A stretch of 64,000 nucleotides of DNA from Rhizobium sp. TH2 (lineage in GTDB: Bacteria; Pseudomonadota; Alphaproteobacteria; Rhizobiales; Rhizobiaceae), in NCBI RefSeq assembly GCF_024707525.1, contig NZ_CP062231.1:4708501-4772500 (forward strand). Direction: 5' to 3'. Positions within the stretch are counted from its first letter, which is position 1, and every line of letters starts with the position of its first letter. Positions 43,190 through 55,806 of the stretch are shown here, in pieces. A program made the position numbers and the translations under genes. Under the pieces are notes generated by a model, which was not told the DNA's origin, did not search any database, and saw only the letters and a list, made by a program, of their open reading frames with translations.

Positions 43190-44452
43190 TCAGTTGAGTT
43201 CGACGGCCACGGGCATCGACTTGATGCCACCGATGAAATTGGACCGAAGGAATTGATGCGGCTCGGTCTGGCGCATGCTCTTCACGCGCTTGGCAAATTC
43301 CTGGAACAGGCAGCGCACTTCGAGCCGCGCCAGCCACATGCCGAGACAGACATGCGCGCCGCCCTGGCCGAACGCCATGTGGCGATTGGGCGAGCGCCGG
43401 AAGTCCACCTCGTAGGGACGGTCGAAGGCTTCTTCATCGCGATTTCCCGACGCAAACCAGAGCAGCACCTTGTCACCCTCACGGATCGTCTTGCCGTGCA
43501 GCTCGATATCCTGGGTGGCGGTCCGCCGGAAATAGAGCGTCGGCGACGCCCAGCGGATCACCTCGTCGGGCATGGTCTCCCAGAGGCTGTCGTCACCCGT
43601 CTGCAATTCCTTGAGGAGGTGCGGATGGCTGGCGAGCGCATGCAGCCCGGCGGAGATCGAGTAACGAGTCGTGTCGTTACCGGCGGCGACGAGCAGGCAG
43701 AAGAAGTTGCGGAACTCCTCCTCGCTGATCACATTGCCCTCCTTGTCGGGCTGCAGGATGAGGTTGAGAACGCCTGATGTATCACCCTTCTTGCGCTTGT
43801 CGTGCATCAGCCGCTTGGCATAGTCGAAGAGTTCCGCGCCGGCCGGTGAGCGGAATGGCATCAGCCGGTAAGCGTCGGTATCGGCCTTGTCGAGCACGAG
43901 ATCGGTGAAATCGGAATCGGTATTGGCGATCAGCGCGTCGCCCTTTTCCACCAGCCATTCGAGGTCTTCGTCCGGCGTGCCGATGATCTGTCCGAGCATC
44001 CGCATCGGCAGCTGCCGCGCCACCATCTTGACGGCATCGAACTCGCCGCGCGGCAGAACCTGATCGAGGATGTCGTCGCAGATCCTGCGAATCTGCTCTT
44101 CGAACAGCGCCACGACCGGCTTGGAAAAGGCCTTGGCCACCAGAATCCGGACGCGGGTATGATCGGGCGGATCGGTTTCCTGGAAGGTCCGGCGCGCCAG
44201 ATATTCCTCATAGGTCTGGTCTTCCATGCGAATGCCGCGTGCGGATGAGAAGACCTGGTTGTTGCGGTTTGCCTCGAGGATATCGGCGTGGCGCGTGAGC
44301 GCCCAGAAACCCTTGCCGCCGGCGTAGTCGCACCAGGCGACGGGATCTTCCCGCCGCATGCGGGCGAACGTGTTGTAGGGCGCTCCGTTGACGAATGTAT
44401 CGTGACTCGACAGGTCGGCGTGACCATCGTCGGCTGGCGTGAAAACCGTCAT
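43190..44452 (-). CDS. Cytochrome P450
   Basis: Soluble bacterial P450, 420 aa. Heme-thiolate motif FGQGGAHVCLG with Cys369, ExxR at Glu297-Arg300 (EVIR), I-helix AAGNDTTR (256-263) with the oxygen-activating Asp-Thr, and the substrate-recognition-region motif DPPDHTRVR. The ATG at 44452 has AGGAGGG seven bases upstream. It heads an operon with a glutamine-synthetase-like ligase and its ferredoxin. Likely reaction: hydroxylation or N-dealkylation of an imported amine. Confidence 0.92.
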   Translation of the reverse strand: MTVFTPADDGHADLSSHDTFVNGAPYNTFARMRREDPVAWCDYAGGKGFWALTRHADILEANRNNQVFSSARGIRMEDQTYEEYLARRTFQETDPPDHTRVRILVAKAFSKPVVALFEEQIRRICDDILDQVLPRGEFDAVKMVARQLPMRMLGQIIGTPDEDLEWLVEKGDALIANTDSDFTDLVLDKADTDAYRLMPFRSPAGAELFDYAKRLMHDKRKKGDTSGVLNLILQPDKEGNVISEEEFRNFFCLLVAAGNDTTRYSISAGLHALASHPHLLKELQTGDDSLWETMPDEVIRWASPTLYFRRTATQDIELHGKTIREGDKVLLWFASGNRDEEAFDRPYEVDFRRSPNRHMAFGQGGAHVCLGMWLARLEVRCLFQEFAKRVKSMRQTEPHQFLRSNFIGGIKSMPVAVELN

Positions 44453-44486
44453 CGCAAACCCTCCTTTTTGCCTTTGAAATAACAAT

Positions 44487-44501
44487 TACACGTGTTAAGT
44501 A
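44487..44501. promoter_or_regulatory. ACACGTGT palindrome with GTTAAGTA upstream of the P450 gene
   Basis: TTACACGTGTTAAGTA contains an 8-bp perfect palindrome and shares GTTAAGTA with the motifs at 10899 and 29861. It lies between the divergent P450 and amidotransferase genes, about 40 bp from the P450 start. It is a candidate operator. Confidence 0.4.
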
Positions 44502-44558
44502 TATTTACAAGTGCCTTATGCACACATTAATCCCGGCCCCGCATGCAATGGATTTGCC

Positions 44559-45272
44559 ATGACTCGACGCATCGCCATCCTGCTGACCAGCACCGACACA
44601 TCGGATTTTGCCAAGCGCCATCCTGATGACGGGCAGAAATTCACCACCCTGCTGCAGCCGCTACGTCCAGACTGGCGCTTCGATGTCGTCAGCGTCAAGG
44701 ACGGCGTGTTCCCTGATGCCGTCGACAGCTATGACGGCTATGTCATCACCGGCTCACCGGCCTCGGTGAACGGGCCGGAAGACTGGGTGGCGCGGCTGAT
44801 GTCCTTGATCCGCGACATCGAGGTGCGGCGCATCCCGATGTTCGGCGCCTGCTTCGGCCATCAGGCGATCGCGGTCGCGTTGGGTGGATCGGTGACGAAA
44901 TCGGATAAGGGCTGGGGCCTGGGCACCGCGCCCACCCATTTCGATCAAAAAGCGCCATGGATGGAGCCTTTTCGCGATCACCTCGTCCTGTTCGCCGCCC
45001 ATCAGGAGCAGGTGCAGGAACTCCCTGATGGCGCCGAGATCCTCGGCGGCGACACCTTCTGCCCGATCGGCGCCTATCGGATCGGCGACCACGTCTTCGC
45101 CACGGAATACCATCCCGAGATGACCCACCGCTTCATCGCGGAGCTTCTCGACGAACTGGATGGCAAACTCGATGCCGATACGCTCGACAAGGCGCGGGCC
45201 ACGCTCGACAGCCCGGCCGAAGGGACGTTCTTCGCGCAGTGGATCGTCAATTTTCTCGAGTATCGGGGCTGA
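44559..45272 (+). CDS. Class I glutamine amidotransferase-like hydrolase
   Basis: 237 aa. Triad: nucleophile Cys98 in GACFGHQA, His185 and Glu187 in EYHPEMT. Stand-alone class I amidotransferases next to gamma-glutamyl ligases (as PuuD beside PuuA) cleave gamma-glutamyl amides, so this enzyme probably removes glutamate after oxidation of the intermediate. I start at ATG 44559; a GTG at 44511 is in frame but adds non-conserved residues. Its stop is 13 bp from the convergent GntR gene's stop. Confidence 0.82.
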   Translation: MTRRIAILLTSTDTSDFAKRHPDDGQKFTTLLQPLRPDWRFDVVSVKDGVFPDAVDSYDGYVITGSPASVNGPEDWVARLMSLIRDIEVRRIPMFGACFGHQAIAVALGGSVTKSDKGWGLGTAPTHFDQKAPWMEPFRDHLVLFAAHQEQVQELPDGAEILGGDTFCPIGAYRIGDHVFATEYHPEMTHRFIAELLDELDGKLDADTLDKARATLDSPAEGTFFAQWIVNFLEYRG

Positions 45273-46068: not shown

Positions 46069-47175
46069 ATGGCCACGGCATTTTACTTCGACGAACGCTG
46101 CCTTTGGCACACGACGGGCGAACACGTCATCATCGCGCCGGTCGGAGGTTACCTGCAGCCGCCCTCCAGCGGAGGCCATGCCGAGAACCCCGAAACCAAG
46201 CGCCGGCTGAAAAACCTCATCGAGGTTTCCGGCCTCGGCGATCATCTCGAATGGCGCAAAGCTGAGCCGGTGACCCGGGCCGAGATGCAGCGCATCCACA
46301 CGCCGAAATATCTCGACGAATTCAAGCGCCTCTCCGATGCAGGCGGCGGCAATGCCGGCTACTATTCGCCCTTCGGTCCCGGCTCGTTCGAGATCGCTGC
46401 GATTTCGGCCGGTCTTGTGAAGCGCGCGGTATCGGATGTCTTCCATCGCCGGCTCGACAATGCCTATGTCATATCCCGCCCGCCGGGCCATCATTGCCTG
46501 CCGGATGCCTCGATGGGCTTCTGCCTGCTGGCCAATATCCCACTGGCGCTCGAAGCGCTCCGCGCCGAAGTGGGCCCTGTCCGGGCAGCCGTGGTGGATT
46601 GGGACGTGCATCATGGCAACGGCACCGAAGCATGCTTCTATGATCGCGACGACACGCTGACGATCAGCCTGCATCAGGAAAACTGCTTCCCGCCGGACCA
46701 AGGCCGAGCCGAAGCCCGCGGGACGGGCAAGGGCGAAGGCTATAACCTCAACATTCCGCTTCTTCCCGGCGGCGGCTACCAGGCCTATCTCGACGCGTTC
46801 GACCTGCTGGTGACGCCTGCTCTGCGCGCCTTCAAGCCCGAGATCATCGTCATCGCCTCGGGCCTCGACGCCAATGCCTTCGATCCGCTCGCCCGAATGC
46901 AGGCGCATTCGGAAACCTTCCGCGCCATGGCGTCGAAGATCAAGGCGCTTGCGGACGAGCTCTGCGGAGGACGCCTGCTGGCCGCGCATGAGGGTGGTTA
47001 CTCCGAAGGCTATGTGCCCTTCTGCGGGCTCGCCCTAATCGAGGAATTCTCGGGCCATCGCACCCCGGTGCAGGATCCGTTCCTCGATATCCTCACCGCG
47101 CAGCAACCCCCGGCCGATTTCATCGCCTATCAGCGCGCGCGGCTCGAAAAGCAGGCGGCAAGCCTCGGCTTCTGA
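46069..47175 (+). CDS. Histone deacetylase-superfamily amidohydrolase (acetylpolyamine amidohydrolase-like)
   Basis: 368 aa zinc hydrolase of the class II HDAC-like fold. The tandem catalytic histidines are His141-His142 (RPPGHHCLPD) and zinc ligands are Asp179, His181 (WDVHHGNG) and Asp267 (ASGLDANAFDP); a C-terminal HEGGYSEGY supplies the transition-state tyrosine. Bacterial members remove acetyl or other acyl groups from polyamines or amides. Ribosome-binding site GGGAGGAG. It lies between an amine-oxidation cluster and an amide-hydrolysis cluster, in keeping with an amide substrate. Confidence 0.87.
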   Translation: MATAFYFDERCLWHTTGEHVIIAPVGGYLQPPSSGGHAENPETKRRLKNLIEVSGLGDHLEWRKAEPVTRAEMQRIHTPKYLDEFKRLSDAGGGNAGYYSPFGPGSFEIAAISAGLVKRAVSDVFHRRLDNAYVISRPPGHHCLPDASMGFCLLANIPLALEALRAEVGPVRAAVVDWDVHHGNGTEACFYDRDDTLTISLHQENCFPPDQGRAEARGTGKGEGYNLNIPLLPGGGYQAYLDAFDLLVTPALRAFKPEIIVIASGLDANAFDPLARMQAHSETFRAMASKIKALADELCGGRLLAAHEGGYSEGYVPFCGLALIEEFSGHRTPVQDPFLDILTAQQPPADFIAYQRARLEKQAASLGF

Positions 47176-47280
47176 CAGGCCGCATGGTGCATTTGCATCA
47201 TTTACAGACGGCCCGATCAGCGGCCTCATGACGAAAAACAAGGGTGAACCGGCAAACAGCCGAAAATGGGAGAATGCGTT

Positions 47281-48531
47281 ATGGACTTCAATCGTCGTCA
47301 ATTTCTGTTGAGCTCGGTGGCGACCTTTGCCGTCGCCTCGCTTTCCACGCCGCTCCTGGCCGCCGACCCGATCGTTATCGGCGTTCCCACGGCGAAATCC
47401 GGTCCCGTCGGCGTCGCCGACCAGGCTGACTGGCTCAACGGCGTCACCATGGCGGTCGAGGAAATCAACGCCGCCGGCGGCGTCAACGGCCGGCCGCTCG
47501 AAACCCGCGTGGTCGACATCGACCTTTTGACCCCCGAAGGTACGGTCGCGGCCTTCCAGAGCCTCGTCGAGGGCGGCGTCCAGGCGCTCGCCCATTCCTT
47601 CGCCATCATCCCGCAGCCCGCGATGGACGTGGCGGCTTCGAACGGCGTGCCCTATCTGAACGGCAATACCAGCCAGGCCAGCCTCGACCTGATCAAGTCC
47701 AACCCGAAATACCACAACATTTTCCAGATCGATGTTGCCGAGACCTATTACGGTGCGGGCTTCGTGAAGTTCCTGTCGAACCAGAAGGCTGCGGGCTGGA
47801 AGCCGAAGAACAACCGCATCCATATCGTCCAGGAGCAGATCGGCTATACGCAGGTCATCTCGAAGGCGACCCAGGCAGCAATCGCCGCCACGAATGGCGA
47901 GTGGGTGCAGGGTCCGATCACCGACATCCAGTTCCCGGTGCAGGACTGGACACCCGTGATCCAGGCCATCAAGGAGGCCGACTGCGGTGTCATCATGATC
48001 GACCACTGGGTGGCGGCGGAACTCGCGAGTTTCGCCCAGGCCTATGTGCTGGATCCGACGCAAGGCTCGCTGGTCTATCTCCAGTACGGCCCATCGCAGC
48101 CCGAATTCCTCGATCTCGCGGGCGAGGCTTCCGAGGGCTTCATCTGGGGTTCGGTGATCGGCGTCTACGCTGACGAGAAGGGCAATGCCTTTCGCAAGGC
48201 ATATCAGGAAAAATATCCCGGCACGATGGGCATGGTCTATACCGGCTCCGGCTATGACACCATCCACATCCTCGCCGAGGTCTGGAAGACGACGGATCCG
48301 AAGGACTTCGATGCCGTCGGCAAGGCGATCAAGGCGATCAAGTATCGCGGCGTTTGCGGTACCTACACATTCGCCACCGACACCAATTCGCCGATCAGCT
48401 ATCCGACCATGACCGACGATGCCGACTCCGCCCAAGCGCATCTGATCTTCCAGGTGCAGGACGGCGCGCACAAGATCATCTCGCCCGCCAGCCTCAAGGA
48501 AGCTGACATGCGGCCCGCTCCGTGGATGTAA
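47281..48531 (+). CDS. Periplasmic binding protein, LivK/amide-urea type, with Tat-like signal
   Basis: 416 aa receptor for the second Liv-type importer. The N-terminus (NRRQFLLSSVATFAVAS, ending in LLAADP) is a twin-arginine-type signal peptide. The mature part follows with IVIGVPTAKSGPVGVADQ and EINAAGGVNGRPLE. The long C-terminal half resembles amide/urea-binding receptors more than leucine-binding ones (impression only). Start ATG 47281 is fixed by the signal peptide. First gene of livK-livG-livF-livH-livM/dmfA1-dmfA2. Confidence 0.86.
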   Translation: MDFNRRQFLLSSVATFAVASLSTPLLAADPIVIGVPTAKSGPVGVADQADWLNGVTMAVEEINAAGGVNGRPLETRVVDIDLLTPEGTVAAFQSLVEGGVQALAHSFAIIPQPAMDVAASNGVPYLNGNTSQASLDLIKSNPKYHNIFQIDVAETYYGAGFVKFLSNQKAAGWKPKNNRIHIVQEQIGYTQVISKATQAAIAATNGEWVQGPITDIQFPVQDWTPVIQAIKEADCGVIMIDHWVAAELASFAQAYVLDPTQGSLVYLQYGPSQPEFLDLAGEASEGFIWGSVIGVYADEKGNAFRKAYQEKYPGTMGMVYTGSGYDTIHILAEVWKTTDPKDFDAVGKAIKAIKYRGVCGTYTFATDTNSPISYPTMTDDADSAQAHLIFQVQDGAHKIISPASLKEADMRPAPWM

Positions 48532-48542
48532 GCGGAAGAGCG

Positions 48543-49274
48543 ATGTCGGCTGACGCAACCATCTTCGGCTGCCGGGGGATCGGAATATCCTTCGGCGGCC
48601 GGGCTATCCTGCAGGACGTGACGCTATCCGTCGCCGCCGGCGAGGTCCTCGGCCTCGTTGGCCCGAACGGAGCCGGCAAGACGTCGCTGTTCGAAATCCT
48701 CTGCGGTCGCTACACCGCCGAAAGCGGACAGGTTTTCCTCGGGGATCGCGACATCACCCGCATGTCGGTCCACGACCGCGCGCGGCTTGGGCTCGGGCGG
48801 ACCTACCAGAGCCCGGTCGTGCCCGGCTCATTGACGATAGCGGAGACCTTCCGCGCGGCGCGCTATGCCTACAAGCCCTACAAGACCCGAATGGATGCCG
48901 AACGGGCTTGCCATCTCGCCAATTTTCGCCAGCCATGGGACCGTGTCGCCGGTTCGCTCGACACGTTCGACCGCCGCAAGCTGCTGCTCTCCTGCCTGCT
49001 GATGCGCCATCCCTCGGTGCTGTTGCTGGACGAGCCCGCCTCGGGTCTGATCAATTCCGAGATCGACGAACTCGACCTGATCATCCGCCGCCTCGTCGAC
49101 GAATATAATATCGGCGCGATCCTGATCGAGCACCGGCTGGAGCTTCTGTCGGCCATCGCCGATCGTGCCGTGGTTCTCGACATGGGGCTCGTCATCGCAT
49201 CAGGCACGCCGCGCGATGTGTTCCGCGATCCGCGCGTGCTCGCCGCCTATTTCGAGGAACCCGCCCATGGTTGA
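48543..49274 (+). CDS. ABC ATPase LivG with degenerate signature motif
   Basis: 243 aa. Walker A GPNGAGKT (40-47) and Walker B VLLLDEPASGL are intact, but the signature position reads SLDTFDRRKLLLS with no LSGGQ- or YGxQ-like core. Start ATG 48543 with GGAAGAG upstream, 11 bp after the receptor gene. As in the first importer, the LivF partner has a normal signature, so the pair may be an asymmetric ATPase. The 3' end overlaps livF by 8 bp. Confidence 0.85.
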   Translation: MSADATIFGCRGIGISFGGRAILQDVTLSVAAGEVLGLVGPNGAGKTSLFEILCGRYTAESGQVFLGDRDITRMSVHDRARLGLGRTYQSPVVPGSLTIAETFRAARYAYKPYKTRMDAERACHLANFRQPWDRVAGSLDTFDRRKLLLSCLLMRHPSVLLLDEPASGLINSEIDELDLIIRRLVDEYNIGAILIEHRLELLSAIADRAVVLDMGLVIASGTPRDVFRDPRVLAAYFEEPAHG

Positions 49275-49965
49275 TGTGTTGAAAGTCGAGGGCCTGACGG
49301 CGGGATACGGCCCCCTTCGCGTGCTTCACGACATATCCTTCAAGATCGCCGAGGGCGAACGCATAGGCCTCGTAGGCCTGAACGGTCACGGCAAGACCAC
49401 GCTGTTTCGAGCCATCTCCTCACAGGTCGGCTGGCAATCGGGGTCGATCCAGTTGTTGGGACTCGAGGTCGGCGGAAGCCGCTCGACCGGTCCAGGGCGG
49501 TTGACGCCGGGCATCGTCCGGGCCGGGCTGGCCATGGCGCCGCAAGGCGACGCGATATTCCCGGGCCTCACTGTCGCCCAGCATCTCGATTGCGGCGCCT
49601 ATACGCCGACCGCCTGGCGCGAGCGAAAACAACGCCGCGAGATGATCTTCGACATATTCCCACCGCTCAGGAAACTCGAGCATGCCCTGGTCGGCCGCCT
49701 CTCGGGTGGCGAGCGGCGCATGGTCAGCGTCGGCCGTGCCCTGATGGTGGAAGCCAAGCTGTATCTCATCGACGAGCCATCGCTGGGGCTGGCGCCAAAA
49801 ATTTCCACCAGCGTGATCGAGGCGCTGTTTTCCCTGCCGCAGGATGGCCGTGCCATGATCATCGCCGAACAGAATGTGGCACTTCTGTCAGGACGCGTCG
49901 ACCGGATGGTGGGCATGCATGCCGGCCGTCTCCGGGGCGACGTCGGACATGTGAGCTTGCATTAA
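49267..49965 (+). CDS. ABC ATPase LivF
   Basis: 232 aa. Walker A GLNGHGKT, signature LSGGERRMVSVGRAL and Walker B LYLIDEPSLGLAP. The true start is the ATG at 49267 (VDVLKVEGLTAGYG follows), inside the end of livG; the longer upstream frame lies entirely within livG. It is followed 1 bp later by livH. Part of the importer that probably supplies the substrate of the formamidase encoded downstream. Confidence 0.88.
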   Translation: MVDVLKVEGLTAGYGPLRVLHDISFKIAEGERIGLVGLNGHGKTTLFRAISSQVGWQSGSIQLLGLEVGGSRSTGPGRLTPGIVRAGLAMAPQGDAIFPGLTVAQHLDCGAYTPTAWRERKQRREMIFDIFPPLRKLEHALVGRLSGGERRMVSVGRALMVEAKLYLIDEPSLGLAPKISTSVIEALFSLPQDGRAMIIAEQNVALLSGRVDRMVGMHAGRLRGDVGHVSLH

Positions 49966-49966
49966 G

Positions 49967-50896
49967 ATGGACCTCTCGATCCTCCTCGTTCACGGACTTT
50001 CGCTGGCCGCCATCTACGGCCTGATGGCCATCGGCATCAGTCTGCTCTGGTCGTCGATCGGCATGATCAACATGGCCCACGGCGCCTCCTTCGCCGTCGC
50101 CGGCTATGCAGCCTGGGGCGCGGCCGAAGTTGCCAAGCCGCTGATCCTCGCCACCCTGGGCAAGACCTTGTCCGGAACGATCGCCATGGCGGGAGTCTGC
50201 CTGTCGGCTGGCGCGCTCAGCGGGGCGATCATGGGCGGGCTTATCTATCTCCTCGCCTTCCTGCCCATTCACGACAAACCGAATTTCGCCGTGCGAAGCC
50301 TGATCGTCACGCTCGCGATCAACATGGCGACAGTCCAGACCCTGCTCTGGGTGTTCGGACCGAAGCAGAAGAACCTCCCCAAGATCTTCGGCATGGGCAG
50401 GATCGAATTCCTCGGCCTCTCCGCCCGCTACGACCAGCTGGGAACGATCATCGGAACCACCGTCATCCTCGGCCTGCTGCTTTTCTGGCTGAAGGTCAGC
50501 CGCAAGGGGCTAGAGATCCGCGCCATGATGCAAAACCCGGAAGGAGCGGTGCTGTCGGCGATCTCCGTCCGCTGGACGGCACTGCCCGTGACCATGCTGA
50601 CAGGTGCGTTGGCCGGCCTCGCATCGGTGTTGCTGTCGCAGACCATCTTCGTCTCGCCGACGTCGGGCGCCGTGCCGCTGATCAAGGGACTGACGATCGC
50701 GCTGCTCGGAGGGCTCGGTTCGGTTCCCGGCGCGGTGGCGGGTGCCGTGATCATCGGCTTCCTCGAAGCCATTATCGGCGCCTTGCCCTTCCTCGGCCAG
50801 CGCTACGTTCTGTTCGGAACCTTCCTCTTCATCATCGCCGTCCTGATCATCCGTCCGCGCGGAATCGGCGGGCTTCTGGACAAGGCGCGTAAATGA
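49967..50896 (+). CDS. ABC permease LivH
   Basis: 309 aa hydrophobic permease. The first segment LAAIYGLMAIGISLLWSSIG and the INMAHGASFAVAGY block are typical of LivH. The C-terminal region GLTIALLGGLGSVPGAVAGAV is the conserved pore segment. ATGA overlap with the next gene at 50893-50896. Confidence 0.88.
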   Translation: MDLSILLVHGLSLAAIYGLMAIGISLLWSSIGMINMAHGASFAVAGYAAWGAAEVAKPLILATLGKTLSGTIAMAGVCLSAGALSGAIMGGLIYLLAFLPIHDKPNFAVRSLIVTLAINMATVQTLLWVFGPKQKNLPKIFGMGRIEFLGLSARYDQLGTIIGTTVILGLLLFWLKVSRKGLEIRAMMQNPEGAVLSAISVRWTALPVTMLTGALAGLASVLLSQTIFVSPTSGAVPLIKGLTIALLGGLGSVPGAVAGAVIIGFLEAIIGALPFLGQRYVLFGTFLFIIAVLIIRPRGIGGLLDKARK

Positions 50897-52410
50897 CCGA
50901 GAAAAAGCTTTTCGAGATCGGTCAACGCCCGCAGGAAATTGCTCTGCCGGTGTCGGGCAGCGAGCCGCTCGACCGCCGCCGCCTGCCGTTCACGCGGCGC
51001 CACCTGCTGAAATGGCGCTCGCGGCTGAACCCCAAGACGCTGAAGCAGGAGCGCCTGCTGGCGGACAAGAAGCCGTTGTGGTGGACCATCGCGCTGGCGC
51101 TGCTCGCCCTGTCCGCGCCGTTCCTGTCGAATTCGGCGCTGACCATCGTCTCGATCTTCTGCATCTTCTCCGCGATCAATGTCCTGTGGACCCTGATCAT
51201 CGGCACCGCCGGCATCTTCAGCCTGGCGACGCTCGCCGTGGTCGGCATCGGCGGCTATTGCGGCGCCGCGCTCAACGTCTATCTCGGCCTGCCCTGGCCC
51301 CTCATGTTCCTCGCTGGCGGGATTGCCGGCTTTGTCGCCGGCGGCCTGCTCGCCCTGCCGTCGACGCGGCTCGATGGACTCTATTATGCTCTGCTGACCA
51401 TGGGTGTCGCCGAGATCTGCCGCGTCTTCGTCCAGCAGCTCAAGCCGCTGACGCCGTATAATGGGTCGATCAACAGTGTCCAGGGCTTCATCCCGAAAGA
51501 CTGGATGCTGCAGCGTCCGGGATTGCTGATCGGTTTCGCCGGTGCCTTCGTGCTGCTGCTGCTGGCGCTCCTGACCTTCCGGATCGTCAATTCCGAACGG
51601 CTCGGCATGCTGCTGCAGACCGCCCGCGAGGACGAGGACTTTGCCCAGGCTTCCGGCATCGATTACCGCAAGGCGCGCATGCAGGTGTTCTGCATCTCCT
51701 CGGCCGGGCTCGGCGTCATCGGCGCCTTCTACGCCCAGTTTTACGGCTCGATCTCGCCGGCAATCTTCTCGCTCGACCAGTTGATGCTGCTGTTCGCCAT
51801 GATCGTCATCGGCGGGCTCGGCCGGGCGGAAGGCGCGGTGATCGGTACTGCCATCGTCGTCCTGATCGACAAGGGTCTCCTTGAGATCGGACCGCTCCGC
51901 ATTCTCCTCGTCGCCGCCATCATGCTGCTGGTCACGCTCTGGACCGACAACGGCATTGCCGGCGCCCGTGAACAGTTCCGCCGCTGGCGCCGCCGCAAAC
52001 AATCAGAGGCGCGTGCGCGCCGTACCGAAAAGGGGGGCGACGTCATGCCCGAAGAAGCCATCGAAATCCACGACAAGCAGGCGATCTATTATCGCCGCTT
52101 CGACAAGCGGCTGCGCGATCATCTCAAGACCCTGATCACATCCGAACTGATCGAGGAACATCGCCTTAATCCGCTTGGCCAGCATTCCGACGGGCTTTCG
52201 CGCGTGCTGAATTATTTCCGGCGCGGCGACGTCGCCGACAAATATGCCATAATCCGCCAGTCCGGCCAGTTCCACGCCTACAAGATCGTCGCGTTCTCGG
52301 GCGTTCGCGGCGCACCGCCGCGCCTCGTCGATGACAAGACCTATGACGGCATCAACGAGGCCTATCACGCCGTGTTCCTTCTGCGCCTGAACGACTTGAT
52401 GGAAAGCTGA
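50893..52410 (+). CDS. LivM permease fused in frame to N,N-dimethylformamidase small subunit-like domain
   Basis: 505 aa in one frame. Residues about 65-365 are a LivM permease (hydrophobic segments; FSLATLAVVGIGGYCGAAL, MIVIGGLGRAEGAVIG). A basic linker (REQFRRWRRRKQSEARARR) leads to residues 385-505, which resemble my recollection of DmfA1, the small subunit of N,N-dimethylformamidase: IEEH..NP, RVLNYFRR, AYKI and AYHAVFLLRL are in the same order. LivM proteins normally end near residue 350-370. An internal ATG (52045, codon 385) with a G-rich ribosome-binding site could also yield a free 121-aa subunit. The large subunit gene starts 4 bp later. The fusion is visible; its identity rests on remembered similarity. 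Confidence 0.8.
   Translation: MTEKKLFEIGQRPQEIALPVSGSEPLDRRRLPFTRRHLLKWRSRLNPKTLKQERLLADKKPLWWTIALALLALSAPFLSNSALTIVSIFCIFSAINVLWTLIIGTAGIFSLATLAVVGIGGYCGAALNVYLGLPWPLMFLAGGIAGFVAGGLLALPSTRLDGLYYALLTMGVAEICRVFVQQLKPLTPYNGSINSVQGFIPKDWMLQRPGLLIGFAGAFVLLLLALLTFRIVNSERLGMLLQTAREDEDFAQASGIDYRKARMQVFCISSAGLGVIGAFYAQFYGSISPAIFSLDQLMLLFAMIVIGGLGRAEGAVIGTAIVVLIDKGLLEIGPLRILLVAAIMLLVTLWTDNGIAGAREQFRRWRRRKQSEARARRTEKGGDVMPEEAIEIHDKQAIYYRRFDKRLRDHLKTLITSELIEEHRLNPLGQHSDGLSRVLNYFRRGDVADKYAIIRQSGQFHAYKIVAFSGVRGAPPRLVDDKTYDGINEAYHAVFLLRLNDLMES
52031..52047 (+). promoter_or_regulatory. Internal ribosome-binding site and start codon inside the LivM fusion
   Basis: AGGGGGG (52031-52037) precedes an in-frame ATG at 52045 by seven bases. 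This would allow independent translation of the 121-aa small-subunit domain from the same mRNA. It is also a homopolymer run where a sequencing indel could hide a stop or frameshift. Confidence 0.55.
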
Positions 52411-52414
52411 TCCC

Positions 52415-54724
52415 ATGACCAATACCCGCATTTTCGGCTATGCCGATCCTCTCTGTGCCCGCGCGGGCGGGACGGTCGATTTCATGATCTCGGTCGAGGG
52501 ACAGGACCACGTGACCGCGAGCCTGGTCCGGGTCATCCATGGTGACGAGAACCCGGAAGGGCCGGGCTATGTCGAGCTCCCGACAGACCTCAAGCTTCCC
52601 GCATCGATCCCGGCCGAACGCCAGTTCACGCAGCTCGGCAGCTTCGCCAACGCCGACGATCCGAAGGGGCGGCTGGACAAGCTCTCGTCCTTCACGCTTT
52701 TCGCCCATTTCCAGCCCACCGCGCCAAAGGCGGAACGCCAGCAGATCATGGGACGCTGGGCCATCGACCGTACCATGGGCTTCGGCCTCGGCATCGATCC
52801 GGATGGACATGTCGCGCTCTGGGTCGGCAACGGTACTGACGTCGACGAGATCCGGACCGAGATCACGCTGGTGCCGCGATGCTGGTATTTCATCGCCGCG
52901 TCCTTCGATGGCGCGACGAAGAAGGCCGAACTGCATCTGATCAATTGCGTCAACGCCTGGAACAGCCGGATATCGACCGTCGTCCCCTTCGAGGCCGACA
53001 GCTGGGTGCGTGAAAGCCTGCGGGTGGCACCGGCGGCAACGGGCGGGGAAGCGAGCTTCAGGCTGGCTTCGGCCACCGCCTGGAACCCGACCCGCGGCCA
53101 TCATGCGAGCCTGCTCTATAACGGCAAGATCGACCGGTCAGGCGTCTATGAGCGCCCGCTGTCCCGGACGGAGATCGAAGCGCTGGCAGGCGGCGCTGAA
53201 CCATCGCCGGAAGGCCTCACAGCCTATTGGGATCCGACCGCGAACCTCGCGCGAGAAGGCGTCGGCGACACGATCGCCGACACCGGCCCGCATGGGCTCC
53301 ACATGCAGGGTGTCAACCGTCCCGTTCGCTGTATGACCGGCTTCAACTGGCGGGGCGAAGAGAGTTATCGCCTTGCGCCGGAGACGTTTGGCGGCGTGCA
53401 CTATCATGACGACGCGCTGACCGATTGCCGCTGGCAGAAGACTTTCTCGCTCGACCTGCCCGACGATCTCAAGTCCGGTGTCTATTGCCTGAAGATCGCG
53501 GCCGGCAATGGCACCGATTCCGTCCCATTCATCGTCCGTCCCAAGACGCCGAAGGCCAAGTTGGCCCTGCTGCTGCCGACCTTCACCTACCTCGCCTACG
53601 GCAACGAGCATCTGTCCTACGAGGCTCCGATCGCCCAGGCGATCACGGCGCACACACCCGTCCTGAACGAGGAGGATCTCGAATACAAGAAGCTCGAGGA
53701 ATTCGGCCTCTCCACCTATGACCACCATTCCGACGGAGCGGGATGCTGCTATTCGTCCTGGAAGCGCCCGATCATCACGCTGAGGCCACGCTATCGCCTG
53801 CCGGCGATGAATTTCCCGTGGTCGCTGCCAGCGGACCTGTCGCTGATCTGGTGGCTGGAGCATGCGGGTATCGACTATGACCTGATCACCGACCATGACC
53901 TTCACGCCGAAGGGCTCGACTGCCTCAAACCCTATCGGACAGTGATGAACGGCACCCATCCCGAATACTATTCCGAGGAGATGATGGATGCGACAGAGGC
54001 CTATCTGAGAGAGGGCGGTCGGGTCATGTATCTCGGTGGCAACGGCTATTATTGGGTCACGGGCACGCGCAAGGACGAACCGCATTGTATCGAGGTCCGC
54101 AAGCTCGATGCCGGTTCCCGCGCCTGGCAGGCGGAACCCGGTGAGGGATACCTCGCCTGTACTGGCCAGCGTTCGGGCCTCTGGCGGTCGCGTGGGCGGG
54201 CGCCGCAGAAGGTCGTAGGCCTGGGCTTCACCGCCGAGGGCATGGATGCGAGCCAGCCGTTCGAACGGATGCCCGACAGTTTTCACAAGCGTGCCTCCTG
54301 GATTTTCGAAGGCATCGGCGACGATGAATTGATCGGCGATTTCGGCCTTGCCGGCGGCGGCGCGGGCGGCATCGAGATCGACCGCTACGAGCTCGGCCTC
54401 GGAACACCGCCGCATACGCTGCTTGTTGGATCGACCTCCGGCCATTCCGACAACTACCCGCTCGTGTCCGAAGAAGTCACCTATGCTTTTCCCGGACGGG
54501 GCGGCACCCAGGACGCCCAGGTGCGTGGCGACATGATCCTGTTCACAACACCAGAACACGGCGCCTGCTTCAGTGTCGGCTCGATCGCCTGGAGCCAGGC
54601 CCTGCCCTGCCACGGCGGTGAAAACAATGTGGCCAAGATAATGCTAAATGTGTTAAATGCTTTTCTGAGAGAAGGAGCGCTGCCCGGCAGCCAATATACC
54701 GGAGACGAAAAGCTCTGGCGCTGA
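52415..54724 (+). CDS. N,N-dimethylformamidase large subunit-like iron amidohydrolase
   Basis: 769 aa, close to the 762 aa I recall for DmfA2. An N-terminal LamG/concanavalin-like domain (about 85-255) is followed by the catalytic domain. In the Paracoccus enzyme a mononuclear Fe(III) is held by two Tyr and one Glu (Tyr399, Tyr440, Glu521). Equivalents here are Tyr395 (TYLAYGNEH), Tyr435 (STYDHHSDG) and Glu517 (GTHPEYYS), a constant shift of 4-5. The enzyme class hydrolyses N-substituted formamides to formate and amine. It starts 4 bp after the fused permease/small-subunit gene, which fits subunit co-expression. The natural substrate may be another N-substituted amide. Confidence 0.85.
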   Translation: MTNTRIFGYADPLCARAGGTVDFMISVEGQDHVTASLVRVIHGDENPEGPGYVELPTDLKLPASIPAERQFTQLGSFANADDPKGRLDKLSSFTLFAHFQPTAPKAERQQIMGRWAIDRTMGFGLGIDPDGHVALWVGNGTDVDEIRTEITLVPRCWYFIAASFDGATKKAELHLINCVNAWNSRISTVVPFEADSWVRESLRVAPAATGGEASFRLASATAWNPTRGHHASLLYNGKIDRSGVYERPLSRTEIEALAGGAEPSPEGLTAYWDPTANLAREGVGDTIADTGPHGLHMQGVNRPVRCMTGFNWRGEESYRLAPETFGGVHYHDDALTDCRWQKTFSLDLPDDLKSGVYCLKIAAGNGTDSVPFIVRPKTPKAKLALLLPTFTYLAYGNEHLSYEAPIAQAITAHTPVLNEEDLEYKKLEEFGLSTYDHHSDGAGCCYSSWKRPIITLRPRYRLPAMNFPWSLPADLSLIWWLEHAGIDYDLITDHDLHAEGLDCLKPYRTVMNGTHPEYYSEEMMDATEAYLREGGRVMYLGGNGYYWVTGTRKDEPHCIEVRKLDAGSRAWQAEPGEGYLACTGQRSGLWRSRGRAPQKVVGLGFTAEGMDASQPFERMPDSFHKRASWIFEGIGDDELIGDFGLAGGGAGGIEIDRYELGLGTPPHTLLVGSTSGHSDNYPLVSEEVTYAFPGRGGTQDAQVRGDMILFTTPEHGACFSVGSIAWSQALPCHGGENNVAKIMLNVLNAFLREGALPGSQYTGDEKLWR

Positions 54725-54828
54725 GGTTTCAGCCGATGAACCGGGCCTGCTTTCCGGATGCGGAAGGAGTTTCGAGCCGACCCGACAGGGCGTCTTGCCG
54801 AGGGTCTGGCCTGCGGTCTGGGGGGCCT

Positions 54829-55806
54829 ATGGGACTGGGAATAGCCAGCTTTTCGCGTTTCATCACCGAGATGAACCATGAGGCGTCTCATATGCGGGCC
54901 GAAGAGCTCGCACGATGGGCCGTTACTGAACTCTCCGTCGCACTGGGTTTCGACGCTGCCTGGTATGGCTGGGCGAGACTTCATCCGGCAGGCGTCGATG
55001 TTTTCGCCAATGCAACACACCAGCTACCGGACGATTTCTTTACGACATGGCAGCGCATGGCCGACCAGGATCTGCTGGCCCGATCCAAGATCGAACACCC
55101 CCGGCACGCAGCGATCTATAGTCGCAAGCAGCGTCAGCAGACCGACGGAATGGCGGATCTCTCTGATCGTTATGGATTGACCCGCATGACGACCGCGATG
55201 GAGAATCCAAGCGGTGGGTTGCCCAACTTTTATCTCTCGTCCTACCGGGTGGGTAATCGCGCGAAGAGCTGGAGCCCCGAGGAATGCGAGTTCCTGCAAT
55301 GTGCCGTTAGCCATCTTACTGCCGCCATGAAACTTTCGACGGCGGAACCCGGTCGCGCCGCCGTGCCTGGTTCGGTGACGATCCTCGCTTCGAGGGATGG
55401 CATAGGCTTTCTCTGTCTCGACGCACTCCGGGAGCAGTTCGGCGATGTATGGCCGCGCTGGACCGGCGACAACCTTCCGGAACAACTGGCCTCCCTGATC
55501 GGCCATCCCGGCACCCATGTCCTGACGGATCGCAACCTGGTCGTATCGGTCGAAACGACGCCCGGCTTTGAGGACATGGACCTTCGCCGGCTGACGTTGC
55601 GCCGCCTCAACCGCTTCGATCTCCTGACCCGGAGAGAGCGCGAGGTCGCGCGCGAGCTGGCAGGCGGAAAGAGTGCCAAGGAAGTCGCCCGTCATCTCGG
55701 CCTTGCGCCTGCAACGGTGCGCAACCAGACGCAGTCGATCTACCAGAAGCTCGAAGTCGATAATCGCGCGGCGCTGGTAGCAGCCGTGCCGGCCGGCACA
55801 GGCTGA
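54829..55806 (+). CDS. LuxR-type transcriptional regulator
   Basis: 325 aa. C-terminal LuxR helix-turn-helix (LTRREREVARELAGGKSAKEV, GLAPATVRNQTQSIYQKL). The N-terminal 240 residues are a sensing region without a clear autoinducer-binding signature, and no luxI-like gene is present. Start at ATG 54829 (GGGGGG upstream) rather than 54736, because the extra 31 codons look non-coding. It follows the formamidase gene by 104 bp, so it probably regulates that operon. Confidence 0.78.
   Translation: MGLGIASFSRFITEMNHEASHMRAEELARWAVTELSVALGFDAAWYGWARLHPAGVDVFANATHQLPDDFFTTWQRMADQDLLARSKIEHPRHAAIYSRKQRQQTDGMADLSDRYGLTRMTTAMENPSGGLPNFYLSSYRVGNRAKSWSPEECEFLQCAVSHLTAAMKLSTAEPGRAAVPGSVTILASRDGIGFLCLDALREQFGDVWPRWTGDNLPEQLASLIGHPGTHVLTDRNLVVSVETTPGFEDMDLRRLTLRRLNRFDLLTRREREVARELAGGKSAKEVARHLGLAPATVRNQTQSIYQKLEVDNRAALVAAVPAGTG

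Follow-up and report, generated by a model that had tools for sequence, protein, structure and literature searches.

A livM/dmfA1 fusion gene with a putative internal translation start in an importer and amidase operon of Rhizobium sp. TH2

Introduction

It has long been asked whether bacteria physically couple the uptake of a compound to its catabolism, and a transient coupling makes this difficult to test. The question is raised by a locus of Rhizobium sp. TH2, in which the gene of a LivM-type permease of an ATP-binding cassette (ABC) importer runs in frame into a domain resembling DmfA1, the small subunit of N,N-dimethylformamidase, directly before a gene for a protein resembling DmfA2, the large subunit. 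Which products does this gene give, and what would a hydrolase subunit do at an importer? In this study, we analyzed the window containing the locus, i.e. the whole stretch of 64,000 nucleotides (RefSeq assembly GCF_024707525.1, contig NZ_CP062231.1, positions 4,708,501 to 4,772,500 of the forward strand), together with homologous loci of other genomes. The sequences compared suggest that livM/dmfA1 probably serves an ABC importer of a small amide and is translated into two products, a membrane-tethered and a free small subunit. All coordinates given below refer to the window.

Fusion of permease and amidase subunit

The following features carry this reading:

50893..52410, + strand: livM/dmfA1 fusion gene, 505 amino acids (aa), with permease, helix (residues 355-379), junction (380-385) and DmfA1 domain (385-505)
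52030..52047, + strand: predicted internal translation start, with AAGGGGGG (52030-52037), a spacing of 7 bases and the in-frame ATG (52045-52047), which is residue 385
52045..52410, + strand: predicted second product, a free DmfA1-like small subunit of 121 aa (PDB 6lvb_B, E 7e-11)
52415..54724, + strand: dmfA2-like large subunit, 769 aa (PDB 6lvb_A, E 3e-175; Pfam DMFA2_C, E 3e-93)

The plus-strand stretch 50893-52410 is a single open frame, and the next open reading frame (ORF) begins at 52415, 4 bp past its stop. Residues 87-347 match the Pfam domain BPD_transp_2 (E 9e-28), and together with its LivK, LivG, LivF and LivH partners this domain identifies a LivM-type ABC permease. It is not the LivM equivalog for branched-chain amino acids, since NCBIfam PRK11301 gave 90.9 bits at a cut-off of 366; none of the NCBIfam cut-offs for LivM, UrtC and related families was reached, and a search of solved structures with the LivM part alone gave chance matches only.

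Residues 8-118 of the 121-aa tail match 6lvb_B, the small subunit of N,N-dimethylformamidase. The tail (A1 in the following) and the downstream 769-aa protein (A2) are 37% and 41% identical to DmfA1 and DmfA2 of pAMI2, respectively. An AlphaFold2 model of all 505 aa, built on a 67-sequence alignment, reached a predicted local distance difference test score of 81.8 and a predicted template modeling score of 0.72. It comprises the permease, a long Arg/Lys-rich helix (355-379), a short linker, and then a domain whose first and last helices are long and which contains two strands (helices 395-414, 417-425, 433-444 and 487-504; strands 450-455 and 463-468; an extra short helix 386-389). Four helices, two strands and long N- and C-terminal helices are the fold of the dimethylformamidase small subunit, and Foldseek accordingly returned 6lvb_B first (probability 1.00; TM-score 0.78 by target length), followed by a second entry of the same enzyme and then, weakly, by the B12 permease BtuC (E 0.19). 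The comparison with DmfA1 proposed in a preliminary description of the locus thereby gave a clear structural match. By sequence and modeled fold, the tail domain is a DmfA1-like small subunit, which is not a separate polypeptide here but lies in frame with LivM, as that description had read it. The same description had considered a stop or frameshift in the linker; the window sequence contains none. Because of the charged helix and a large subunit in which no signal peptide was recognizable by eye, the C-terminal domain is probably cytoplasmic.

The ratio of nonsynonymous to synonymous polymorphism (pN/pS), taken over 23 disjoint close pairs, was 0.12 for LivM, 0.14 for residues 355-379, 0.03 for the junction 380-385 and 0.11 for A1. 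As judged from these ratios, purifying selection acts on the linker as it does on both domains.

In the fused LivM, the N-terminal ~55 residues (50893-51060) lie outside the matches to 18 other LivM-like places of its own genome, which begin at residue 55 or later. Residues within this part are near-invariant across the fusions, and it is possibly a docking element.

Large subunit and predicted role of the tether

Over residues 4-757, the 769-aa protein aligns with 6lvb_A, the large subunit. It belongs to a family that takes in dimethylformamidase and N-acetyl-(R)-beta-phenylalanine acylase. The iron ligands Y399, Y440 and E521 and the essential H519, as published for the Paracoccus enzyme (PMC7686228), align with Y395, Y435, E517 and H515, so that the 2-Tyr-1-Glu site (Tyr395, Tyr435, Glu517) which the preliminary description had assigned to the large subunit is borne out, together with the catalytic His. 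Asn543 is listed beside these four residues, and the specificity position F693 of the Paracoccus enzyme aligns with Tyr690. The Paracoccus enzyme is an alpha2beta2 complex or a dimer thereof, and its large subunit has no activity by itself; the small subunit inserts its N-terminal helix as a wedge between two large subunits, and the cavity that leads to the active site is situated between large and small subunit (PMC7686228).

Because the alpha2beta2 enzyme depends on a small subunit that reaches between the large subunits with its N-terminal helix, the LivM-borne small subunit would bind a dimer of large subunits to the permease on its cytoplasmic side. The anchored enzyme could then hydrolyze the imported amide on arrival, which would keep its cytoplasmic level low and thereby pull uptake. 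An anchor at the importer is strongly implied by the fused frames; hydrolysis of the amide on arrival, which the preliminary description had envisaged as a vectorial uptake-hydrolysis complex, is speculative.

Other ABC importers carry C-terminal regulatory domains. By analogy, the fused DmfA1, with or without DmfA2, might be a cytoplasmic gate or sensor that tunes transport to the state of the enzyme and does not pass substrate. Both the location of the domain at the permease C-terminus behind the Arg/Lys-rich helix and the stoichiometry, with one LivM and hence one tethered small subunit per importer, would suit such a function. However, the domain is an enzyme subunit, a Pfam scan found no ligand-sensing domain, and the large-subunit gene comes next in all fused loci of the 80-locus set described below except L082, where the contig ends (L-numbers are labels of fetched loci). 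We regard a regulatory role as rather unlikely and prefer an anchor that holds the hydrolase at the importer.

Translation start at the junction

The preliminary description had overlooked that the in-frame ATG at 52045 follows AAGGGGGG. Ranked by anti-Shine-Dalgarno (anti-SD) energy, this ATG comes first among 21 in-frame start codons of the ORF. The commonest junction motif among the best 120 of 784 protein matches is E-K-G-G-E-V-M-P-E-E-A (59/120), and the window has E-K-G-G-D-V-M. The K-G-G codons are mostly AAR GGA/GGG GGN, e.g. AAAGGAGGT, AAAGGAGGC or AAGGGGGGC, seven bases ahead of the ATG.

All 58 non-actinobacterial coding sequences of a first set have ATG, GTG or TTG at the junction or one codon earlier, and this start has the best anti-SD energy of the in-frame starts within the stretch scanned in 54 of them and the second best in 4. 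A wider set comprised 83 distinct fused loci (71 non-actinobacterial, 12 actinobacterial) after 9 duplicates had been dropped from 92. Here, a junction start was found in 69 of the 71 non-actinobacterial fusions and was strong in 61, with strong meaning that it reached a threshold of -9 kcal/mol, which was chosen once the values were known. A conserved in-frame start with a Shine-Dalgarno (SD) sequence at workable spacing is thus present outside the Actinobacteria, with the exception of 10 of the 71 loci.

Codon choice at the junction departs from the usage in the rest of these genes. At Gly381, GGA or GGG is used in 56 of 63 sequences (0.89), compared with a mean of 0.29 (standard deviation 0.13, maximum 0.60) in 28 conserved Gly columns of the same genes with the same relatedness, Gly382 included; L061 was left out of this comparison. 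GGA alone accounts for 0.56 at Gly381 vs a maximum of 0.175 elsewhere, which is reached at the neighboring Gly382. When synonymous codons were resampled from each ORF's own codons, 20.4 strong sites were expected among the 69 loci, and 61 are seen. The start codon is also kept where the residue differs. One group of fusions has the ATG one codon earlier, and loci without Met at either junction position have GTG in 5 of 5 Val cases and TTG in 4 of 6 Leu cases; across the genes of these four loci, TTG accounts for 31 of 223 Leu codons. Neither L122 (CTG) nor L160 (CTC), the remaining Leu loci, has a start, and both carry a free small-subunit gene.

Separate small-subunit genes

In L122, from an Ensifer adhaerens plasmid, and in L160, this separate gene lies between fusion and large subunit; the same arrangement is found in L089, which has a weak site. 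In L117 and L165/L180, also with weak sites, the fusion is followed by a large-subunit gene, a free small-subunit gene and another large-subunit gene. No second A1 copy was found in any of the 61 strong loci within the DNA examined, in which some flanks were 1.5 kb or less, so that a copy past the large subunit would be missed there. Loss of the junction start goes with a separate free gene: a free copy is present in 4 of 10 weak-or-lost loci (5 of 10 with L180) vs 0 of 61 strong ones. The one-sided Fisher p of 2e-4 overstates independence, because the loci are related and the free-copy events few.

A different explanation would be that the 505-aa chain is the sole product and that the SD-like sequence at the junction is a by-product of the protein motif or of a translational pause. 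Several points weigh for it and against a free product. The KGGE motif itself favors SD-like codons, as the 20.4 sites expected by chance indicate, and therefore single loci are mostly not significant (per-locus resampling below 0.05 in only 23 of 69, median p 0.17); the codon evidence is collective over related sequences. GTG in all five Val loci is no surprise, as GTG accounts for 136 of the 219 Val codons of these genes. The 10 of 71 loci with weak or lost junction sites belong to a Methylobacterium/Bradyrhizobium/Rhizobium-plasmid subclade, and no free copy was found in five weak-site loci of these (L099, L119, L149, L150, L161); for L149, L150 and L161, whole-genome searches scoring at most 11 candidates per genome gave no other A1 match. 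Only about two or three gains of a free copy are needed on a tree of these loci, from which L089 and two other short rows of the 83 were dropped. The 12 distinct actinobacterial fusions have neither an SD sequence nor, in the fetched flanks, a second A1, and therefore a free subunit is not universally needed. In the first set, a start codon was present in 2 of 13 actinobacterial coding sequences and was best-ranked in none; L104 was grouped with the Actinobacteria by eye, in agreement with the large-subunit tree. Against the 505-aa chain as sole product stand the excess of GGA/GGG at Gly381 over the 28 other Gly columns, the start codon kept as Met, Val (GTG), Leu (TTG) or a Met one codon earlier, and the coincidence of start loss with a separate free gene. 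This explanation therefore appears unlikely to us, and we favor a free small subunit that is made from the junction in addition to the fusion.

Distribution and origin of the fusion

To survey relatives, 80 loci were taken from species genomes via a 20-row small-subunit alignment, a choice that favors close relatives. Among them, 70 have A1 fused in frame with LivM, 9 were classed as split, and a contig end truncates the remaining one. In L117, one of the 9, the copy examined is the second, free one, and a fused copy lies upstream. The best 120 of the 784 protein matches all carry both Pfam accessions, the permease domain and PF26354 (the precomputed accession on the tail domains), at 475-518 aa. 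According to the record titles, fused loci occur in Pseudomonadota, Actinomycetota, one Gemmatimonadales and one Desulfobacula; the latter two records are metagenome-assembled, so that each of these phyla rests on one bin. In 55 of the 70 fused loci, genes for LivK, LivG, LivF and LivH precede the fusion in this order; the remaining 15 are cut within 3.5 kb upstream. The question raised in the preliminary description, whether relatives always encode two separate proteins, is thereby answered in the negative, and a fusion unique to this genome was rejected.

On a tree of 99 large subunits, the fused state requires five changes and fits one gain and four losses. This tree was a quick one with some weak forks and inferred rooting, and left out rows below 600 aa, L010-L012 and L077. 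Small-subunit matches at E 1e-10 were obtained for the order in 39 of 397 genomes, for the class in 16 of 385 and for the phylum in 5 of 398 sampled genomes; many of them are weak, separate relatives. Within its own family, a large-subunit match at E 1e-60 was found in 61 of 394 genomes. The seven closest foreign large-subunit loci examined (L010-L016, ~48% identity or more) are fused, and 22 more distant loci (L017-L038) showed no LivM fusion within 1.5-kb flanks. Fusion to LivM thus prevails among close relatives, and the more distant enzymes examined lack it; the fusion system is accessory.

According to a further explanation, the free subunit is the working form, and its joining to LivM was a neutral read-in after loss of a stop codon. 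A strong internal start would indeed give a complete small subunit, and the characterized dimethylformamidases have separate subunits (PMC7686228). However, no locus was found with A1 as a separate frame directly after LivM, 70 of 80 loci being fused, and the 9 split A1 copies have no LivM match directly upstream (in L098 the upstream DNA covered is only 252 bp). Moreover, most actinobacterial fusions lack any internal start codon, and the pN/pS of the linker is as low as that of both domains, which makes neutral read-in unlikely; overall, we consider it very improbable. A sequencing or assembly error in the six-G run 52032-52037, suggested by the homopolymer at the junction, is refuted as the origin of the fusion by independent genomes that have other codons there, e.g. 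GGA GGT, and are also fused.

Some loci deviate from the common arrangement. In L027 and L031, from the same family, the large-subunit frame starts with the small subunit (open frames of 917 and 903 aa), in L031 assigned by eye from similarity to L027; the enzyme family thus has another kind of fusion as well. In L120 (7001-11744; Aminobacter sp. MDW-2 plasmid pMDW2), two large-subunit genes in a row come after the fused livM/A1; a second A1 match was not found within the locus, and propionyl-CoA synthetase and haloacid dehalogenase genes lie farther on. P0146 from Bradyrhizobium betae (122 aa), listed as a separate protein, is similar to the A1 of those loci in which the junction start is strong. 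The fused frame of L061 (5785-6147), which is metagenome-assembled, breaks 11 residues into the small-subunit domain, by error or as a pseudogene. L125 was rejected as a fusion despite an open frame of 483 aa.

Products and their assembly

As far as the compared genomes tell, LivM and a DmfA1-type subunit share one frame that selection has kept open in distant lineages, directly before the large-subunit gene. For most of the non-actinobacterial lineages examined, a free small subunit of ~120 aa from the junction start is strongly indicated: ribosomes would also start there, at the SD sequence and the ATG, GTG or TTG. With one LivM per importer, the tethered subunit would fill one place of the dimer, so that the free subunit could take the second small-subunit place; alternatively, it could form an additional soluble pool. 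We infer from this a mixed tethered and free assembly. Actinobacteria appear to use the tethered form alone, which suggests that this form can do without the free one, unless an actinobacterial free copy lies beyond the fetched flanks that were looked at. The preliminary description had proposed half of a hydrolase tethered to the importer. The fusion frame behind this proposal is real; with two products predicted in most lineages, the tether would be only a part of the arrangement.

Chances are about even that these loci form an undescribed class of ABC importers. In this class, one gene would give both a subunit-bearing permease and the free subunit, half of an alpha2beta2 iron amidase would sit on the importer, and the ratio of tethered to free subunit would be set by an internal ribosome-binding site. 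The class would cover many genomes in two phyla and one metagenome-assembled genome each in two more.

Operon, neighboring genes and substrate

The fusion and large-subunit genes are accompanied by the following genes:

46069..47175, + strand: amidohydrolase resembling histone deacetylases (HDAC-like), adjoining the operon upstream of livK (Pfam Hist_deacetyl, E 1e-73)
47266..48531, + strand: livK-type periplasmic substrate-binding protein, 421 aa (Pfam Peripla_BP_6, E 3e-36)
48522..49274, + strand: livG-type ATPase, 250 aa (Pfam ABC_tran, BCA_ABC_TP_C)
49267..49965, + strand: livF-type ATPase, 232 aa from the Met codon at 49267 (ABC_tran, E 3e-25)
49967..50896, + strand: livH-type permease, 309 aa (BPD_transp_2, E 4e-27)
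54736..55806, + strand: LuxR-type regulator, 356 aa (GerE, E 1.5e-14)

The seven-gene unit livK-G-F-H-M/dmfA1-dmfA2-luxR, which the preliminary description had recognized as self-contained, is a coherent operon of transporter and hydrolase genes, the core of which recurs in other phyla. The nearest solved chain for the livK-type protein is 3h5l_A (E 4e-55). A Tat-like RR signal can be read from its sequence, and the Pfam TAT_signal match is weak and under its cut-off (E 0.13). The ORF listing allows a longer variant of the livF frame from a GTG at 49165. A homologue of the LuxR protein clusters with 33 of 71 fused-or-edge loci. Since BLASTP at E 1e-3 gave no match between it and the LuxR regulator of pAMI2, regulation of the DmfR type by this neighboring gene was set aside.

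With identities of 37% and 41% to pAMI2 DmfA1 and DmfA2 and without this LuxR match, N,N-dimethylformamide or formamides are no more than candidate substrates. The nearest solved relatives of the HDAC-like protein are the deacetylase 9glb, the HDAH 5g0x, the dimethoate hydrolase 9gkw and the propanil hydrolase 9gku. Homologues flank 9 of the 71 fused-or-edge loci, a set that includes many truncated ones. In the actinobacterial loci L084, L095, L102 and L106 these homologues lie directly downstream of the large subunit, and the HDAC-like amidohydrolase may therefore act in the same pathway. Taken together, the neighbors point to N-substituted amides, which is suggestive but not conclusive, and a secondary or tertiary small amide that gives a methylated or other small amine is plausible as substrate.

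Two further neighborhoods were observed. The window encodes a cytochrome P450 and a class-I glutamine amidotransferase (GATase1) at 43190-45272, homologues of which (69% and 53-54%) occur together near the operon in the Limnohabitans loci L076 and L080. Downstream of the operon in L119 (9687-12671; Rhizobium sp. plasmid pMK-2), gfa, fghA and a metal/formaldehyde-sensitive repressor gene are found on the opposite strand; these formaldehyde-detoxification genes hint at a methylated amide as substrate.

Implications

An enzyme family and an importer family, both of them known, are joined here in a way that we found undescribed, by a translational device of known type. The literature searched, with most subscription-journal papers and bioRxiv preprints outside its coverage, contained no description of a LivM-DmfA1 fusion and no dimethylformamidase paper that also used the term 'ABC transporter'. 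The coupling of uptake and catabolism is written into the gene in this system and conserved over large evolutionary distances, and it can be dissected by one stop codon, leaving the free form only, or by one start-codon change, leaving the tethered form only. Annotation also has a gap here: among the best 120 protein matches, the named ones are called permease or branched-chain amino acid transporter, names which hide the amidase subunit and the likely substrate class.

Comparison with known systems

The enzyme of this locus resembles DmfA1/DmfA2 of Paracoccus (6lvb; dmfA1-dmfA2 of pAMI2) in both subunits by sequence and fold, in the gene order A1-A2, in the iron ligands and catalytic His, and in a LuxR-type gene close by. 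In pAMI2, however, the small subunit has its own gene after luxR and no transporter gene is present in the 8-kb stretch fetched, whereas here it forms the C-terminus of LivM and, by prediction, is also made free. The importer shares its five components and permease family with Liv/Urt-type importers (LivKHMGF, UrtABCDE), but to our knowledge LivM has no hydrolase subunit attached in those systems. Transport components coupled to a cargo-modifying enzyme are known from peptidase-containing ABC exporters and from vectorial acylation by FadD. Those cases are exporters or involve a separate enzyme, whereas here an importer bears one of the two subunits of a hydrolase. As for the translational device, AerR reportedly is a two-product gene with an internal in-frame start. 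SpaO/SctQ likewise gives a long form and a short C-terminal form from one frame, and for SpaO the short form is reported to assemble with the long one (PMC13059759). The gene described here would differ from SpaO/SctQ and AerR in that its long form is a membrane permease and its predicted short form an enzyme subunit.

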